This document shows, in pieces, positions 5,362 to 26,328 of a DNA stretch of 26,852 bases. This stretch comes from a virus. The notes below the pieces were generated by a model. The model had not been told where the DNA came from. It was given only the letters and a program-made list of their open reading frames with translations, and made no database searches. How positions within the stretch are numbered: position 1 is the first letter of the stretch; every line of letters begins with the position of its first letter. Both the position numbers and the translations under genes were made by a program. The stretch is from the IMG/VR virus record IMGVR_UViG_3300012929_000040, positions 1-26,852 of that record. One strand, 5' to 3'.

Positions 5362-6444
5362 GTGACGATGTATCGATCGAAGCACGGCACCATCGCCGGA
5401 GGCCCACCAGAGATGGTCCGCCGGATGCTGTGCATGGGGGCTCAACCCCTTGTCGAAAGGTCTCGTCACAGCGAGCCCCGCCAGAACCTGGGTCGCAAAG
5501 CTCGGGTTCTGGCGGTGGTTCACGGTTGGATGCCTTATCTAGCCGCTGGGTCCGAACGAATGATGCAACACATGATCGACGCCCTTCCCCGAGATGAGTT
5601 CGAAGTCAGCGTGTTGTCGTTCGGGTTTGAGGACAATATATGTGAAGATTACCTCTACGAGAACACGCCAGTCCACGTGGGTTATTCCACAGAGGAAGTC
5701 CCAGACGTGATCATAACCCATCACGGTCCGGCATCTCGGGTAGTCCAGGATATGTCTCTGCAATTCCCAGACGCCCGTATAGTCACGGTGTTCCACAACG
5801 AACGCTACGACATCCCGGATATCCTCCGGCTGAACGCAGACCTACAAGTTTACAATACTTCGTGGGTTCGTGACGCGGTGAACTCAAGTTCCCCGAGTAC
5901 GGTCGTTCACCCGCCTCTCGATCCTTCTCGGCATAGAGTGGGTAAGCGGGGCAATAAAGTGACCCTTTGTAACCTTCAAGATAACAAAGGTGTCCACGTT
6001 TGGAACGAACTCGCTCGTCGCATGCCTAACGTCGAGTTTCTCGGGGTAATAGGTTCCCACGGGGAGCAAATCCCGGTAAAGCTTGCGAACGTCGAGATTC
6101 AGCCGTTGACGCAGGACATGCGGGAAGTCTGGTCCAACACCAAGATCCTACTCATGCCCTCCGGATACGAATCCTACGGTATGGTGGCAGCAGAGGCTTG
6201 TGTCTCTGGCATCCCCGTGATCGCAAACCCAACCCCCGGTCTGGTTGAATGCTTGGACAACGCAGGTATCTTTGTTCCGAGGGACGACATCGATGGGTAT
6301 GAGCGAGTCATCCGGCTACTGTTGGAAGACAAAGAGCAGTACCGAATCCACTCGGAGATGGCAGAGCTTCGAGGGCGAGAACTTGCAGACCAGACAAATA
6401 GCGAACTGAAAAGGTTCGTCCAAAAAATGAGGGGGTTGGTCTGA
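5362..6444 (+). CDS. GT-B fold glycosyltransferase, GT4-like
   Basis: This roughly 360-residue protein has the features of a family 4 type glycosyltransferase, which moves a sugar from a nucleotide-sugar donor to an acceptor. Near the N-terminus there is a donor/acceptor loop of the type HGWMPYLAAGSER (residues 54-66). In the C-terminal Rossmann-like domain there is the family EX7E motif, E270 and E278, in PSGYESYGMVAAEA, followed by GIPVIA and GLVECL. The first 45 residues precede the fold and contain AGGPPEMVRRML, which I do not recognise. GTG 5362 and ATG 5368 have no clear ribosome site, whereas the in-frame ATG 5413 has GGAGG at 5398-5402, so the start is uncertain. Its place directly behind the capsid gene suggests it glycosylates virion proteins, which is an inference. 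Confidence 0.88.
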   Translation: MTMYRSKHGTIAGGPPEMVRRMLCMGAQPLVERSRHSEPRQNLGRKARVLAVVHGWMPYLAAGSERMMQHMIDALPRDEFEVSVLSFGFEDNICEDYLYENTPVHVGYSTEEVPDVIITHHGPASRVVQDMSLQFPDARIVTVFHNERYDIPDILRLNADLQVYNTSWVRDAVNSSSPSTVVHPPLDPSRHRVGKRGNKVTLCNLQDNKGVHVWNELARRMPNVEFLGVIGSHGEQIPVKLANVEIQPLTQDMREVWSNTKILLMPSGYESYGMVAAEACVSGIPVIANPTPGLVECLDNAGIFVPRDDIDGYERVIRLLLEDKEQYRIHSEMAELRGRELADQTNSELKRFVQKMRGLV

Positions 6445-7614: not shown

Positions 7615-8214
7615 ATGCCCTCGCCTGGCTTGAACGACGCTGGATATGTTCTCCTTAACAACACTACCCTTTACACGGCGGCCGTCGATACGGCAGCGGT
7701 CGATGCAAACTCTCTGGACACTCCGGGTGTCGCGTGGACCATTCTCGGACACGTCGGTGATGAGACCGGTAAGGGCAACATCGTCCTAACCAAAGACGGC
7801 GGAACCGCGACCACCAAGGGGTCTATGACGAAGCGGGCTATCCGCCAGGTTGTCGATCCGGTGTTCCACGGTGTAGATGTCGACATCACGCAGTGGACGC
7901 GCGACGTTTTGGCGCTGTATCACGGCACCTCCGGCGGTACCAACCCGACGGCTATGCAGATCGAGGGTGTCTCGGATGGTTCTACGACCAACCGGGCCAT
8001 GCTGGTGGTCTGGGCTGACGGCACCAAGCGAGTGGGGCTGTACGCCCCCAACGTGTCTTGGACCGGTCGTGACGCTATCGACACCACTTCGGTTGCGGAC
8101 GCGGTAGCCATCCCGTTGCACGGCGCCTTCCTGGACTCCCCGACCTTGGTCGGCCCAGCGAGCAAGGCCCTGCGCTACACGTGGATCTCGCCCACGCTTC
8201 TGGTCCTTTCTTGA
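7615..8214 (+). CDS. Major tail protein (tail tube subunit)
   Basis: This 199-residue protein has the look of a tail tube subunit: mostly short beta strands and Gly/Thr/Asp-rich turns (GHVGDETGKGNIVLTKDGGTATTKG, then VWADGTKRVGLYAPNVSW and VADAVAIPLHG). It starts at ATG 7615 with GGAG just upstream and lies between the terminator-type gene and the tail assembly chaperones, the standard slot. A terminator-like hairpin follows seven bases after its stop, which would fit high production relative to the chaperones downstream. Codons look more uniform than in the small connector genes, again fitting an abundant product. Confidence 0.88.
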   Translation: MPSPGLNDAGYVLLNNTTLYTAAVDTAAVDANSLDTPGVAWTILGHVGDETGKGNIVLTKDGGTATTKGSMTKRAIRQVVDPVFHGVDVDITQWTRDVLALYHGTSGGTNPTAMQIEGVSDGSTTNRAMLVVWADGTKRVGLYAPNVSWTGRDAIDTTSVADAVAIPLHGAFLDSPTLVGPASKALRYTWISPTLLVLS

Positions 8215-8220
8215 TCCTCG

Positions 8221-8260
8221 GCCCGGGGACCCGACTTAGGTCTACTCCCCGGGCTTGTTT
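8221..8260 (+). terminator. Terminator-like hairpin after major tail gene
   Basis: A perfect 9-base stem, GCCCGGGGA at 8221-8229 and TCCCCGGGC at 8246-8254, is separated by a 16-base loop and followed by TTGTTT. It starts six bases after the major tail stop codon. The T-run is short and interrupted, so it may be a partial terminator that lets some transcripts continue into the chaperone and tape measure genes. Confidence 0.75.
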
Positions 8261-8338: not shown

Positions 8339-8683
8339 ATGACGGCACTCTCAGTTCTTCGAGCTCGCGCACTAGAGAAGTACGCCCCTTATCAGTTGGA
8401 ACTGGACGACGGCTCGATCGTTGAACTGAAGTCGGTTATGGTTCTCTCGGATGAGGAGCTGAAGCAGTTCACCAGCTCTCAGAAGAACCTGAACACGTTC
8501 GATGATGAGGATGACTCTTTCGGGGTCAAGAGCGAGTTCGTGTCTTTGATCTCAGGTGTTTCTAGTGATCGAGCACGGACGGCGGAGGCTTTGGATCGGG
8601 AATCGCTGGGAGTCCTGACTTTGATCCTGGAGGATTACGTGGGGTCCCTTTCCGAGGGCACCAAAAGCGAAAGCGCTAGCTGA
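8339..8683 (+). CDS. Tail assembly chaperone, short form (gpG-like)
   Basis: This 114-residue protein is the unshifted product of the tail chaperone locus. It is acidic and helical (LSDEELKQFTSSQKNLNTFDDEDDSF, then LDRESLGVLTLILEDYVGSL), ending KSESAS before a TGA at 8681-8683. Proteins of this type hold the tape measure protein in an assembly-ready state and are not in the finished virion. The locus sits between the major tail and tape measure genes, the invariant place for this pair in long-tailed phages. The last codons overlap an open downstream frame, see the frameshift site entry. Confidence 0.85.
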   Translation: MTALSVLRARALEKYAPYQLELDDGSIVELKSVMVLSDEELKQFTSSQKNLNTFDDEDDSFGVKSEFVSLISGVSSDRARTAEALDRESLGVLTLILEDYVGSLSEGTKSESAS

Positions 8684-9068
8684 TCTGATCGAGGAATACG
8701 AGGGACCGCTTACAGCGGACTTTCGTAAGACGTACGGGCTCCGGTTGATCACTGCGGTTGAAGAATTAGAGGAACAAGAGCTTTTGGACCTGATCCTCTG
8801 GTTGCCCCCTGGCAGCGCTTTCTCAGCCGTTAGGGAGGCAGGTGGGGTCAACAACCGAGCTACCCAGCTTTTTGGGTGGACGGCAGATTCCGAGTTCCGA
8901 CTAGGGCAATTGAACCTCCTCCAGAAGATCAGCTATATCTTGGAGCAAGTCAACAGCAAGAATAACGTGACGGTGCCGAAGCCTATCCCCGGTCCCCGCA
9001 GTAAGCCAGACCCCACAACCGATGCTAACGCCATCGCTCGAAAGCTCATGGCAGCCCAAGGAGATTAA
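8339..9068 (+). CDS. Tail assembly chaperone, frameshifted long form (gpGT-like)
   Basis: The second frame is open from 8625 to the TAA at 9066-9068. It continues with helical sequence, ALADLIEEYEGPLTADFRK, YGLRLITAVEELEEQELLDL and WLPPGSAFSAV, which looks like the usual T part of G-T fusions. Across the junction no good start with a ribosome site was found; TTG 8745 lies inside the well-formed sequence. Position arithmetic puts the first frame at 2 mod 3 and the second at 0 mod 3, so ribosomes must move +1 or -2, not the usual -1. With a +1 slip at AAAA (8663-8666) the product has about 242 residues. The tape measure gene starts three bases after the stop. Confidence 0.8.
8645..8680 (+). promoter_or_regulatory. 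Programmed ribosomal frameshift region (+1 or -2)
   Basis: The switch between the two chaperone frames must occur after 8624 (a TGA in the downstream frame at 8622-8624) and before the TGA at 8681-8683. The best candidate is ACC AAA AGC at 8660-8668: Lys-tRNA on AAA (8663-8665) can re-pair perfectly with AAA one base on (8664-8666). A second candidate is TCC CTT TCC at 8645-8653, with re-pairing on TTT. No heptamer for a -1 slip leads into the right frame. The exact site is inferred. Confidence 0.6.
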
Positions 9069-9071
9069 GCT

Positions 9072-12000
9072 ATGGCTATCGTAGGCGTAGCATCCATCAG
9101 GGTGCGGCCAGACCTAACCGAGTTCCGAAAGGAACTCAAAGCGGAACTAGCGTCTATCAAAAATGCGGTTACGATCAAGGTAGACGCTGATGTAAAAGAC
9201 GCCAGGGCTAAGATCGAAGCTTTTGTAGCAGCTCAACAGGCTAAGGACATCACCAAAAACCTCAAGGTAAACGTAGATAAGAACTCAGCTAAACAAGCTG
9301 AGAAAGAGGTTTCTGGAGTTATCAACGCGCTAGCGTCTGCTGAAAAGGCGGTCTCTGGTTTTGGCATCGGTGGCAACATCTTGGGTGGCGCTTTACTCGC
9401 TCTCCCTAACGTGCTGCACACGATCATCCCTCTTTTGACCTCAGCAGCGGGGGCCGCACTACTTATCCCCGGGGCTTTGGTGTCTGCGGTTGGTGTCTTC
9501 GCTGCGGTCAAGCTGGGTATCGACGGCATACACCACGCTTTCAACGGGCTGAATCCCACTATCAAAGCGTTGGGTTCTCAGGTATCAAACTCGTTCCAAA
9601 CGTCGTTGACTCCGGCCGTCAACAACTTGAAAAAGATCCTCCCACAGTTGAGCGTGGGTTTTAGAACTATCGCCACATCCATCGGTGGTGTCGCTACCAA
9701 GATCACCCTTATGCTCAAGGCCGGAGATAACACCAAGAATCTGAATTCTATCTTGTCGGGAACAGGCAGGATCATCCAGAACTTGGGCGTCGCGTTGGTG
9801 CCTTTGATCCAAGCCTTTCTGAACGTAGCCAAAATCGGCACAGACACCTTCGTTCAGTTGTCGTCCCATATAGGTGGGGCTGCTCAGAGGCTAGCGGCGT
9901 TCACGGGGTCATCGGCGGGTATCAAAGACATCCACGACCGCATCCTTCTGGCTGTAGCCGCTTTCAAAACGCTAGGTGACATCATCCATACCCTCGGTTC
10001 CATCATCGGGGGCGTGTTCTCCGGGTTGGCTCAAGGTGGTGGATCTGTCGGTGGAAGTTTGGTCCAGACGTTGCATTCGATCAGCGACGCTATCCACTCT
10101 ATCAAAGGACAGCAAGCCCTAGCCGCCCTAGGCACAGCTTTGGCCGCTGTAGGTCACGCCGTGGCTCAGACCCTTGGACCTGCTCTCCAAGCTTTGTTCC
10201 CGATCCTTACGGTCGTCTTCGGGTTCATCGCGGACCACGCTAATATCTTCGGTCCCTTGATTGTCGGGCTCGTGGGCATGAAACTGGCATCGCCGCTGGC
10301 GGCTAGCGGTATCAAGTTGGTTTCCGGAGCGCTTGAGTTGCTGTCGGCCAGTCCTTTGCTCCTGGTAGTAGCGGCTATAGCCGGACTCATCATAGCTACC
10401 GGAAATGCTCAGCCCGTTATCAACGCGCTCAAAAGGGCTTGGGAGAGTATTCTCCCCGCTCTCCGCGAGTTGGGTAACGCTGTTCTACCGCCGCTGAAAA
10501 GGCTGTGGGAGGACTTGAAACCGGCTATGAAAGGCGTTGCGGACATCATCGGTAAGGTGTTCGACGTGTTGACGCCGGTAGCCGAGCTGTTGTTGAAGTT
10601 GGCTACGTTCATCATTCCTTTGGTGATCAAGTTTTTGGACCTGCTGCTCATCCCTATCAACGCCGTTATCAAAGCGCTGGACTTCCTATCTAACCTGAGC
10701 TTCACCCAGCTAATAGCTAATTTTAGCACGTTGTTGACCGCTCTATCTAAAACAGGGGCGGTTACCGGACTTGTAGACCACCTTCAGTCCCAGTTGGACG
10801 CGCACTCGAAAGGGTTCTTGAAGCCTTTTACCGACGTTGTGAACGAGGGTTTGTTCTCCTTGGGTAAGGGTCCGGAGGCGTCTGCAGCGGGTAAACGAAT
10901 CGTAGACAGCCTTACGTTTGGTATGTCTTCCGCCGGTCCGAGGATTCACGATTTCTTCGCCGGAACCCTAACGGGCATCGTAGGCTTTATCAACGGAAAC
11001 CTCGGGAAGTTCCAAGATCCTGGCAAAGGTATCGTTGATGCTATCCAAGGCGGTATGTTCCTGGAGAACGTCCGAGTCCAAGAGCAGACGGTGTCGAAGA
11101 TCTTGGATAGCGTCATCGGGGTGTTCCAAAAGCACTCCGGGGACTTCGCTCAGGTCGGTCAGGACATCGCGAGCCGGTTGTCTGACGGCATGACTCTGGC
11201 TCAACAGGCTGCGGTTGACGCTGGCGTCAACCTCATGGGTAAAGTGTTCTTCGGAATAACTTCTCAGAGCTTGCAGTCAACCCAGTTTGGTATCAACTTC
11301 GTCCAGCTGTTCAACCAAGGAATCAGCTCTCAGCAGCAGGCTGCTATCAACGCCGGTATAAACACGGTGGGTTCGGTGTTCTTCGGTCTACACACCCGGG
11401 ACGGCGAGTTCCTGCCTTTCGGTATCAACGTCATCACTCTTTTCAACAGCGGCATGACCCTCGCCCAGCAAGCTTTGTTCCAAAAGGCTTCTGACATCAT
11501 CACCGGGGTAGTCAACCAGCTGAAAGGTCGAAACGGCGACGTGTTCGCCGCCGGGGCCGAGAAAGGTACCTCGTTCGCTTCCGGGATCACGAGCCGGGCG
11601 ATCGATGCTTACCGAGCGGGTGACGCTGTAGCCGCCAACTTGCCCCCCCACTTCGGGACCTCGCTGTTCGGGGTTGGGCAAGTGATTATGGATTCGCTCA
11701 TCAACGGTATCCAGTCCAAGAAGAACTTCCTTCAGCAAGTTCTGGGCGGCATCACCGCTTTGATCCCTCTTTCTAAAGGTCCGCCTTCTAAAGACAAAGT
11801 GCTATTGAAGCCCGCTGGCGAGGCGATTATGGATGGGTTGATCAACTCTATCCTAGGGAAGCAGCTGGAACTTCAGGCTGCTCTCGCCAGCGTGACGGGC
11901 ACCATCTCGTCCGCTTTCGACCCGAACGCTTCGGCGTTCAACCCGGCTATCTCCGCTCAACTAGGGGCTTCGCTGGTGAGCTCGAACACGATCGCCCCGG

Positions 12001-12113
12001 CTCCGGTCGTCGTGAACGTGAATACAGATACGCCCGCTCTGAAGGACTTCATTTCGGTTCAGATAGACGACGGAAACCGAGACACTCGCCGTAGGGTTTT
12101 GGCAGGGGGTTAA
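9072..12113 (+). CDS. Tape measure protein
   Basis: This 1013-residue protein is the longest in the window and sets tail length. At the usual 0.15 nm per residue it would give a tail near 150 nm, which is an estimate. AAGGAG lies upstream of ATG 9072. The N-terminus (residues about 1-90) is charged and helical (FRKELKAELASIKNAV, IEAFVAAQQAKDITK). Hydrophobic segments follow at about 98-160, 385-425 and 500-535. From residue 617 to about 880 there are seven tandem units of about 44 residues, each starting with a GM or GI motif: residues 617, 661, 706, 750, 794, 838 and 879. The region near 905 has KGPPSKDK, akin to SPSK-type motifs common in these proteins. No peptidase or muramidase motif was seen. 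Confidence 0.95.
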   Translation: MAIVGVASIRVRPDLTEFRKELKAELASIKNAVTIKVDADVKDARAKIEAFVAAQQAKDITKNLKVNVDKNSAKQAEKEVSGVINALASAEKAVSGFGIGGNILGGALLALPNVLHTIIPLLTSAAGAALLIPGALVSAVGVFAAVKLGIDGIHHAFNGLNPTIKALGSQVSNSFQTSLTPAVNNLKKILPQLSVGFRTIATSIGGVATKITLMLKAGDNTKNLNSILSGTGRIIQNLGVALVPLIQAFLNVAKIGTDTFVQLSSHIGGAAQRLAAFTGSSAGIKDIHDRILLAVAAFKTLGDIIHTLGSIIGGVFSGLAQGGGSVGGSLVQTLHSISDAIHSIKGQQALAALGTALAAVGHAVAQTLGPALQALFPILTVVFGFIADHANIFGPLIVGLVGMKLASPLAASGIKLVSGALELLSASPLLLVVAAIAGLIIATGNAQPVINALKRAWESILPALRELGNAVLPPLKRLWEDLKPAMKGVADIIGKVFDVLTPVAELLLKLATFIIPLVIKFLDLLLIPINAVIKALDFLSNLSFTQLIANFSTLLTALSKTGAVTGLVDHLQSQLDAHSKGFLKPFTDVVNEGLFSLGKGPEASAAGKRIVDSLTFGMSSAGPRIHDFFAGTLTGIVGFINGNLGKFQDPGKGIVDAIQGGMFLENVRVQEQTVSKILDSVIGVFQKHSGDFAQVGQDIASRLSDGMTLAQQAAVDAGVNLMGKVFFGITSQSLQSTQFGINFVQLFNQGISSQQQAAINAGINTVGSVFFGLHTRDGEFLPFGINVITLFNSGMTLAQQALFQKASDIITGVVNQLKGRNGDVFAAGAEKGTSFASGITSRAIDAYRAGDAVAANLPPHFGTSLFGVGQVIMDSLINGIQSKKNFLQQVLGGITALIPLSKGPPSKDKVLLKPAGEAIMDGLINSILGKQLELQAALASVTGTISSAFDPNASAFNPAISAQLGASLVSSNTIAPAPVVVNVNTDTPALKDFISVQIDDGNRDTRRRVLAGG

Positions 12114-23907: not shown

Positions 23908-24397
23908 GAGATGCCTCATCCGTCTCGAATCCGCACGCTGCGTAGCCGATGATGTCAGCCCAATTATCGCGCTTGGGTGATGCGATGATCCTAGCCATTT
24001 TGAGTTGGATCATCACGAGCGCGATATCAGTAGCGGTGAGGGACTCTTTCAGCTTGTGCCCGAGTTGCACGTTGAGCAACGCAGCTGTGTTCTCGAAGTT
24101 TTGGGTTGGCGAGCCGTAGCTAGCGTTGCGATCACCGTGAACCAACTTCGAAGCCTCGTCCAAAATCTCCTGACGAGGTGTCGTCTCATCCTTTACCGAC
24201 CCGGGTGTCTGCAGAAACCCGGGTTGCATAACAGGGACATCCGCACTGCGGAATCGCAGTGTATCCGGGTCTACGTTGTAACCGCCCACCCAAATCCAGC
24301 CATCGTCACCCGTTTCGAACGACTCAAGTATACCCGATCGAACTTGACCTGACCACCAGTCTCGCGCGAATACGTAGTCCCCTGGTTGTGCGATCAT
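23897..24397 (-). CDS. DUF6378-like protein with SH3-like N-terminus
   Basis: This 166-residue protein starts at ATG 24397, which shares a base with the polymerase stop (TGATG), with AAGGAG upstream in the end of the polymerase gene. Residues about 1-55 look like a small SH3-type barrel (AQPGDYVFARDWWSGQVRSG, DDGWIWVGGYNVD). After a Pro/Thr linker, residues about 75-158 carry ILDEASKLVHGDRNASYGSP, ENTAALLNVQLG, ATDIALVMIQLKMARI and KRDNWADIIGYAA. I recall this GDR..YG.P..NF and K.DN..DI.GY signature from DUF6378, common in phage genomes. The function of that family is not established to my knowledge. Confidence 0.75.
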   Translation of the reverse strand: MIAQPGDYVFARDWWSGQVRSGILESFETGDDGWIWVGGYNVDPDTLRFRSADVPVMQPGFLQTPGSVKDETTPRQEILDEASKLVHGDRNASYGSPTQNFENTAALLNVQLGHKLKESLTATDIALVMIQLKMARIIASPKRDNWADIIGYAACGFETDEASHGG

Positions 24398-26328
24398 CAA
24401 TGCGCACACTCCTTCCAAGTCCGGCCCGGAGGGCCGTGACCAAACGGGAACTCGATCTTCTGACCGTGTCCCTCCGGCTTCCAACTCCTGGTGAAGCACC
24501 TTAGCACGAACGCCAGATCCCGGTCTAGAGTAGCACGAGGCATGCTCAGGAGGACAGCATCGTGGTTGGTGATCTTGATCATACGCACGTACCGGTTGGG
24601 TAGGTTGATCAAGCCATCGGCTATGATCTCGTTCGTCGACGACTGCCCGACGAGGGCCGGGGGCTGGGTGAACGTAGACCCGGTGATGACCATACGCCTC
24701 CCCCAGTCGTTCATCACGAACCCGTGGTCAGCCCCTTGCTTCGACATAGCCTCTTGCCAGCGGACGACTTCTGGATACGCTCGGTTCAACCCGTCTAGGA
24801 ACTTCTTAGCCTCTGGGAACGAGATACCCAGCGTCTTAGACAGCTTGGCCGGTTGGACTCGGTATCCCCACGCGTGGCCCCCAGCCTTCGCTCTCGGCCT
24901 CAAGACCTCGCGCTCGGCTTCAGCACGCTCAGCCCCCCATACGGCTGCGGCGTTGAGCATGTGGCCATCCTGCCCGGGTTGGAACCGGATAGCGAAGTTC
25001 CGGTCTCCGGACTCGGCTGCTACGCAGCGGGCATCAGCGTTCGAAGCATCAATCTCGATCAAGACCTCATCGTCGTTGTCCGCTAGCCAGTAGTCTTTGT
25101 GGCTGTCGTCCCACACCGTAAGTCCGGGTTCGGTCGTCGACTTCCGGCCCGAGCGCTGTCCAGGCCAGATCGAAGGGTGAACCCAACCGTCTGGGTGTAC
25201 AGAGGCTAGGGCAAGCTCTGGCAGACTTCGTTGCCCCGCGAGGGTGGCTACCAGCTCCGCCAACTCAAGGGCGTCTGATCGAGCATCCTCGTCTCGGACC
25301 CAAACTCCGTCCACCTCGGTCCAGCCACAAGCCTTCCTGATCGAATCCCCACCGAAGCTGGGGGCACCCGTCGGGGTGCGCTCTAGGTCCATCTCTTTCA
25401 CGCCTACCGACTTGAGAGCCAGCAGCAGGGCGGCTTTGCCCTCTTTAGAAGCTAGGGGCTTCTTACCGTGGAGAGGCAGTCCGAATCGCTCGTGGAGGTC
25501 GTTTAAGTTATGAGCGTAGGCTTCAGCCATACTCTGGACGCGGTCGTTAGCCGCTTCGTGGTCGAGTCGAAACCCGTTGCGCGAGATCTGAGCGTCGATG
25601 CCTGCTTTGACCTGCTCTCGCCACGCGTAGTGGTTCATCGGATGTCGTTCTATCAACCCGCGAGCTACTTCGCGGAGACACCGAACGTCTTGTTCCAAGT
25701 AGCTCCGAAACTCGGGTAGGTCGAGAGGGATAGCCCCGTAACCGCAGCACACCCCCTCGATCGGCTTGCGCGTGGTAGCGAGCTTAGGTTCACCTTTCCG
25801 AGGGCCGGACTTGTACACAGCGGGTTCGCCATCTGGTCCGACCATCTGCGGTCGGTAAGTACCGTACTCATCGGCGAGTTCCGAGAGGTCGGTGGACTTA
25901 CCCTCAACCCCGAGCTGAAACGCTTGGTTATCCAGCGAGTACCACTTTCGGTACTCGCCTACGTTCTTACAGCGTCGAGGCCCTTTGCGCCCTGTGTACA
26001 GCCCCTCGGGGGCTGGGTTGGCTAGGGTCGCGTGGATAAACGTGTCGAGAACCCGTTGGTCGCGAGACATCTGAAGAGGCTCATCGGAGTCTCGACCGAA
26101 CAACACGCTGAGATCGAACGCATGCCCGTTATGCGCGACCACCACCCCGGCCGAGCGAATGATGTCGACCATCTCATCGTAATCTTCGGTGATCGTGACC
26201 TCGTCGGAATCACCCCACGAATACCCTCCGAGTCGGAAGTACTCACGAGGGGACATACCGTAACGTTCGGTCACAGAGTGTGTTTCCAAATCGAACCAGA
26301 GGTATTCGGGGCCGAACGCTACGGTCAT
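24397..26328 (-). CDS. DNA polymerase I-type phage replicative polymerase
   Basis: This 643-residue family A polymerase has a 3'-5' proofreading domain and no 5'-3' exonuclease. Exo motifs: FDLET with D13 and E15, VAHNGHAFD with D72, and YLEQD with D214. Polymerase motifs: A EIDASNADAR with D427 and D432, B RPRAKAGGHAWGYR with R477, K481, H485 and Y489, and C NHDAVLL with H589 and D590. ATG 26328 follows GGAGGG. Compared with E. coli Pol I, motif A has Asp in place of E710, motif B has His in place of F762, and motif C has Ala after HD instead of Glu. The catalytic Asps and the B-motif Arg, Lys and Tyr remain, so it should be active. Confidence 0.93.
   Translation of the reverse strand: MTVAFGPEYLWFDLETHSVTERYGMSPREYFRLGGYSWGDSDEVTITEDYDEMVDIIRSAGVVVAHNGHAFDLSVLFGRDSDEPLQMSRDQRVLDTFIHATLANPAPEGLYTGRKGPRRCKNVGEYRKWYSLDNQAFQLGVEGKSTDLSELADEYGTYRPQMVGPDGEPAVYKSGPRKGEPKLATTRKPIEGVCCGYGAIPLDLPEFRSYLEQDVRCLREVARGLIERHPMNHYAWREQVKAGIDAQISRNGFRLDHEAANDRVQSMAEAYAHNLNDLHERFGLPLHGKKPLASKEGKAALLLALKSVGVKEMDLERTPTGAPSFGGDSIRKACGWTEVDGVWVRDEDARSDALELAELVATLAGQRSLPELALASVHPDGWVHPSIWPGQRSGRKSTTEPGLTVWDDSHKDYWLADNDDEVLIEIDASNADARCVAAESGDRNFAIRFQPGQDGHMLNAAAVWGAERAEAEREVLRPRAKAGGHAWGYRVQPAKLSKTLGISFPEAKKFLDGLNRAYPEVVRWQEAMSKQGADHGFVMNDWGRRMVITGSTFTQPPALVGQSSTNEIIADGLINLPNRYVRMIKITNHDAVLLSMPRATLDRDLAFVLRCFTRSWKPEGHGQKIEFPFGHGPPGRTWKECAH

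Follow-up and report, generated by a model that had tools for sequence, protein, structure and literature searches.

A putative +1 frameshift site, AAA_AGC, in the tail assembly chaperone gene of a metagenomic virus

Two overlapping open reading frames of a metagenomic viral record very probably represent a single tail assembly chaperone gene, the sequence of which points to a +1 slip at AAA_AGC. The window, i.e. the whole stretch of DNA analysed, comprises 26,852 bases. Since the +1 chaperone shift is an already known kind, the window provides a further member rather than a new kind. The motif AAA_AGY, which was present in the sequence of every junction of +1 geometry examined, nevertheless makes a good candidate for a common signal.

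Reading frames of the chaperone locus

The short chaperone ORF of the window (ATG 8339 to TGA 8681-8683, frame 2) encodes 114 amino acids. In the acceptor frame (frame 0), the last upstream stop codon is TGA 8622-8624, and the frame is then open from 8625 to TAA 9066-9068. As was originally predicted, the positions of the stop codons in all frames allow frame 2 to be joined to frame 0 by a +1 or -2 move only, and positions 8625-8683 correspond exactly to the overlap between the stops. The third (-1/+2) frame is open at 8680-8688 only, that is, for two codons at the junction, and a -1 join is thus ruled out by the sequence. Likewise, the search of the overlap for a -1 heptamer of the X_XXY_YYZ type revealed neither GGGGGAA nor CCCCGGAA. 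The sequence ACC AAA AGC is found in frame at 8660-8668. The features of the locus are listed in Table 1.

Table 1. Coordinates of the chaperone locus and of the adjacent genes in the window
Feature	Position	Strand	Basis
Major tail protein gene, upstream	7615..8214	+	Pfam Phage_TTP_17 E=2.5e-23; phrog_117
Short tail assembly chaperone (G-like)	8339..8683	+	ORF; phrog_330 E=4e-10; Pfam GP24_25
Acceptor (T-like) open frame, entered by frameshift (proposed)	8625..9068	+	phrog_393 E=3e-13 alone
Overlap, must contain the shift	8625..8683	+	stops in each frame
Slip site AAA_AGC (predicted)	8663..8668	+	sequence; conservation; longest invariant run of clade alignment
Tape measure protein gene, directly downstream	9072..12113	+	phrog_305 E=4e-64

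In addition to its similarity to phrog_330, the short ORF matches the Pfam family GP24_25 (mycobacteriophage tail assembly protein) with 34.6 bits (cut-off 27.4), and the fusion, when read with a +1 shift at AAA_A, shows a nearly full-length match to phrog_393 (E=1e-22, residues 4-227). As all three are tail assembly chaperones, the predicted identity of the gene is borne out. The arrangement is that of the lambda G/GT type, with two overlapping ORFs flanked by the genes for the major tail protein and the tape measure protein, and with both parts as well as the fusion homologous to known chaperones.

It seems highly improbable that the downstream protein is initiated separately and that no fusion is made. 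Two related loci (L003 and L010) do have an in-frame ATG just upstream of the site, and mycobacteriophage Saroj is annotated with two separate genes. In the window, however, the earliest ATG, GTG or TTG of the acceptor frame is TTG 8745, located downstream of the conserved LADLIEEYEGPLTADFRKTYGLRL segment, so that independent initiation would cost the protein this, its most conserved, part. Moreover, an early acceptor start is not conserved across the clade, and separate initiation would not require the AAA spelling described below to be conserved.

A G+C-rich hairpin with a 10-bp stem is located at 8220-8256, in the gap that separates the chaperone gene from that of the major tail protein. 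It is not a plain terminator, since the window has no T-run there. The hairpin at the same place is stronger in L003 (z -5.5) and L011 (z -3.4), and L031 is devoid of it (z +0.8). The window gave no hit in scans for Rfam families and tRNAs.

Conservation of the slip site

No match at 1e-5 was obtained among isolate phages by tblastn of the short ORF or by blastn of the region; viral contigs scanned with one protein at a time (the fusion or the major tail protein) likewise gave none, and neither did a scan of genome contigs for prophages. Scans of viral contigs yielded L002/L003, L010, L011, L031, L019/L037 and L024/L038. Two of these, L024 and L019, were first found by a DNA pattern containing AAAAGY, and were recovered again, together with L031, by C-terminal peptide patterns devoid of the slip site. 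The same +1/-2 geometry, along with an in-frame AAA_AGY, is present in six metagenomic loci (L003, L010, L011, L031, L037/L019 and L038/L024). The site reads ACC AAA AGC in the window and L031, GCA AAA AGC in L003 and L010, ACG AAA AGT in L011 and ACG AAA AGC in L037 and L038, and the longest stretch without variation in the alignment of the clade's junctions is AAAAG. In L031, which lacks GCGCT, AAA AGC is kept though the next codons differ.

The coding frame switches at the site. L003 and L010 share 89% identity. Of the 36 differences between them upstream of the site, 24 fall at position 3 of the zero frame, and of the 43 downstream, 30 fall at position 3 of the +1 frame, the phase of the third positions switching in the block that holds the AAAA site. 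The source of the window being a metagenomic viral record, one might suspect an artificial frameshift caused by a lost or gained base, i.e. an assembly error or a decayed gene. This is extremely improbable, given purifying selection in both frames and the recurrence of this geometry in isolate genomes and in several contigs that were assembled separately.

In the 6364 codons of the window's genes, in-frame AAA-AGC occurs three times (the slip site counted) and AAA-AGT not once, and about 0.006 occurrences would be expected by chance in the 20-codon overlap. In-frame XXX_X, on the other hand, is frequent in the same genes (93 occurrences); hence the AAAA tetramer alone would say little, and it is conservation that counts. 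In all 17 chaperones whose frames have the +1/-2 geometry (eleven from mycobacteriophages and six from the window's clade), an in-frame AAA_AGY was found within the overlap; none of the seven with -1 geometry has one there. The association would have a Fisher p of 3e-6 if the rows were independent; as the loci are related, these are not 24 independent trials, and the tree requires only two changes of direction. In each of the 17 loci, AAAA is the sole in-frame XXX_X of the stretch examined (either the whole overlap or the final 25 codons of it), and AAA re-pairs perfectly one base forward (AAA_A), as expected for +1 slippage in the P site. The original prediction had pointed to ACC AAA AGC as allowing a perfect +1 re-pairing on AAA and had proposed that the conservation of AAAA be checked in relatives. 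The outcome is positive, and on the sequence evidence both the site and the direction are very likely right.

The spelling of the lysine codon is informative as well. With the slip site excluded, the ratios of AAA to AAG in the chaperones of the clade are 1:11, 2:10, 0:18, 0:18, 1:18, 1:17 and 0:11, yet the slip-site codon is AAA every time. Since AAG would be synonymous in the zero frame, something besides the protein sequence must keep AAA at this position. The post-shift A-site codon, GCG, is commoner in the window than the zero-frame AGC (30.3 versus 9.6 per 1000 codons; AGT, 3.6).

Proposed mechanism and direction of the shift

Most ribosomes would terminate at 8681, releasing the short form. 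When peptidyl-tRNA-Lys occupies AAA 8663-8665 and AGC, a minority serine codon of the window, stands in the A site, a fraction of ribosomes, as we infer, would move +1 onto AAA 8664-8666 and continue with GCG 8667-8669. The shifted ribosomes would reach 9066 and produce a 242-aa fusion with the junction ...SEGTK|AKALADLIEEY.... The two forms may, by analogy with lambda gpG/gpGT, chaperone the tape measure protein and recruit the major tail protein. No downstream RNA structure is shared by the six loci (z-scores from -1.5 to +1.3), and no Shine-Dalgarno-like stimulator is conserved among the loci. GAGGG, situated 4 nt upstream of the site, is present in the window only and is not better than 27% of gene positions.

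The frame outcome would be the same in the case of a -2 slippage of the Mu kind. This could occur on AAA_AGC itself or close to it, or else at GC_GCT (8673-8677), by re-pairing of tRNA-Ala with GCG instead of GCU. Such a product would exceed that of the +1 shift by one residue, and the -2 move at AAA_AGC would give the junction GTKSAKALADLIE. GC_GCT is found in the window, L003, L010, L011 and L037, and a -2 move has been described for the equivalent shift in Tweety, a cluster F phage (PMC2884959). Nevertheless, we regard a -2 shift as very unlikely. The bases preceding AAA vary among the loci of +1 geometry (ACC, GCA, ACG, TCG, CCC, CCG) and leave no consistent -2 re-pairing, which favours +1: after a -2 move tRNA-Ser would come to lie on AAA and tRNA-Lys on a codon that differs between phages (CCA, CAA or CGA), whereas the +1 move always places tRNA-Lys on AAA. 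GC_GCT, in turn, is missing in L031 (GAG GCA ATT GCT) and in the mycobacteriophages compared, all of which retain AAA_AGY, and in ThulaThula and Mangethe the stop codon directly follows AAA AGT. A conserved re-pairing sequence of the Mu type was thus sought at both places and rejected.

The chaperone shifts of Karhdo (PMC10793310) and Maravista (PMC11256854) were described as +1. The cluster F site has been labelled both -2 (Tweety) and +1 (Fruitloop, Karhdo, Maravista), a disagreement that can be addressed via AAA_AGY. The conserved motif supplies a mutable site and a predictable peptide, which makes the questions of motif and direction testable in phages of Mycobacterium smegmatis.

Comparison with other phage chaperones

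The chaperone frameshift is -1, -2 or +1 depending on the tailed phage (PMC5009743). That +1 is rare, as was initially assumed, appears overstated: it is annotated in the mycobacteriophages Fruitloop, Karhdo and Maravista, and the 2718 positive sites of the PRFect training set include 350 forward versus 2368 backward ones (PMC10274946). The PRFect paper (PMC10885494) states that a general +1 motif for forward frameshifts has yet to be identified. In a search that covered mainly openly accessible literature, we found no paper that names AAA_AGY as the signal, which is not evidence of novelty.

The eleven mycobacteriophages with +1/-2 geometry and an in-frame AAA_AGT in the overlap are Che8 and Fruitloop (both F1), Saroj, JangDynasty, Catdawg, BIB3, Redi, MichelleMyBell, Baka, ThulaThula and Mangethe; the GenBank record of Fruitloop carries the note "+1 programmed frameshift". 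These chaperones (phrog_978/621) resemble that of the window in gene position, geometry and in-frame AAA_AGY. They differ in family by profile (phrog_978 or 621 for Che8, JangDynasty and Baka versus phrog_393 as the best match of the window), in the A-site codon (AGT versus AGC) and in the distance from the shift to the stop (2 to 18 codons versus 6). The tightest junction seen is AAA AGT TGA of ThulaThula and Mangethe (L039:1350-1358 and L040:1353-1361). In Saroj (L042:1324-1743), the AAA_AGT site and +1 geometry are present, and the annotation of two chaperone genes probably reflects a missed join.

The closest protein family of the window's chaperone is that of the L5/RER2 kind (phrog_393/330), represented by Wile, SWU2, Charm and CosmicSans and the Streptomyces phages Shaeky and Shady. 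Unlike the window, these have -1 geometry and G_GGG_GAA or C_CCG_GAA sites. Together with Icee they make up the seven -1 chaperones that lack AAA_AGY in the overlap; six of the seven harbour GGGGGAA or CCCCGGAA, and Icee has CCCAAAC. Phage Mu (-2) and lambda G/GT (-1) share the two-product logic with the window, but not the direction and the slip sequence. Listeria phage PSA, as proposed here for the window, shifts +1 via slippage of the P-site tRNA; it does so, however, at CCC_UGA and ACA_CCC_UCC, on a proline codon, in capsid and tail shaft genes, and with a stop codon or a pseudoknot as the stimulator (PMC5009743).

In the tree of 20 fused chaperones, the clade of the window (support 99/98) joins the -1 family of L5/RER2 and Streptomyces phages with a support of 100/100. 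It stands outside the +1 mycobacteriophage family, within which Icee (cluster E) represents a -1 member. At least two changes of shift direction are forced by this topology, providing a case of the direction changing within one gene family. Comparison of the window clade with the Che8 tail assembly chaperone by hhalign gave no significant match; the kinship of the two chaperone families therefore rests on weak PHROG cross-matches, such as that of P0004 to phrog_978 (8e-6). On balance, we are inclined to consider AAA_AGY a dedicated +1 slip signal common to two families of actinobacterial phage chaperones with a distant kinship (the phrog_393-like clade and phrog_978/621). It would be either ancestral, with -1 sites arising twice (in the L5/RER2 group and in cluster E phage Icee), or reached independently.

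Two further genes of the window deserve mention. A glycosyltransferase-like gene (5362-6444; Pfam Glycos_transf_1, phrog_2170) lies between the major capsid protein and head-tail genes and is also present in L002/L003, and a DNA polymerase-like protein (phrog_17, E=1e-58) is encoded on the opposite (-) strand at 24397-26328.
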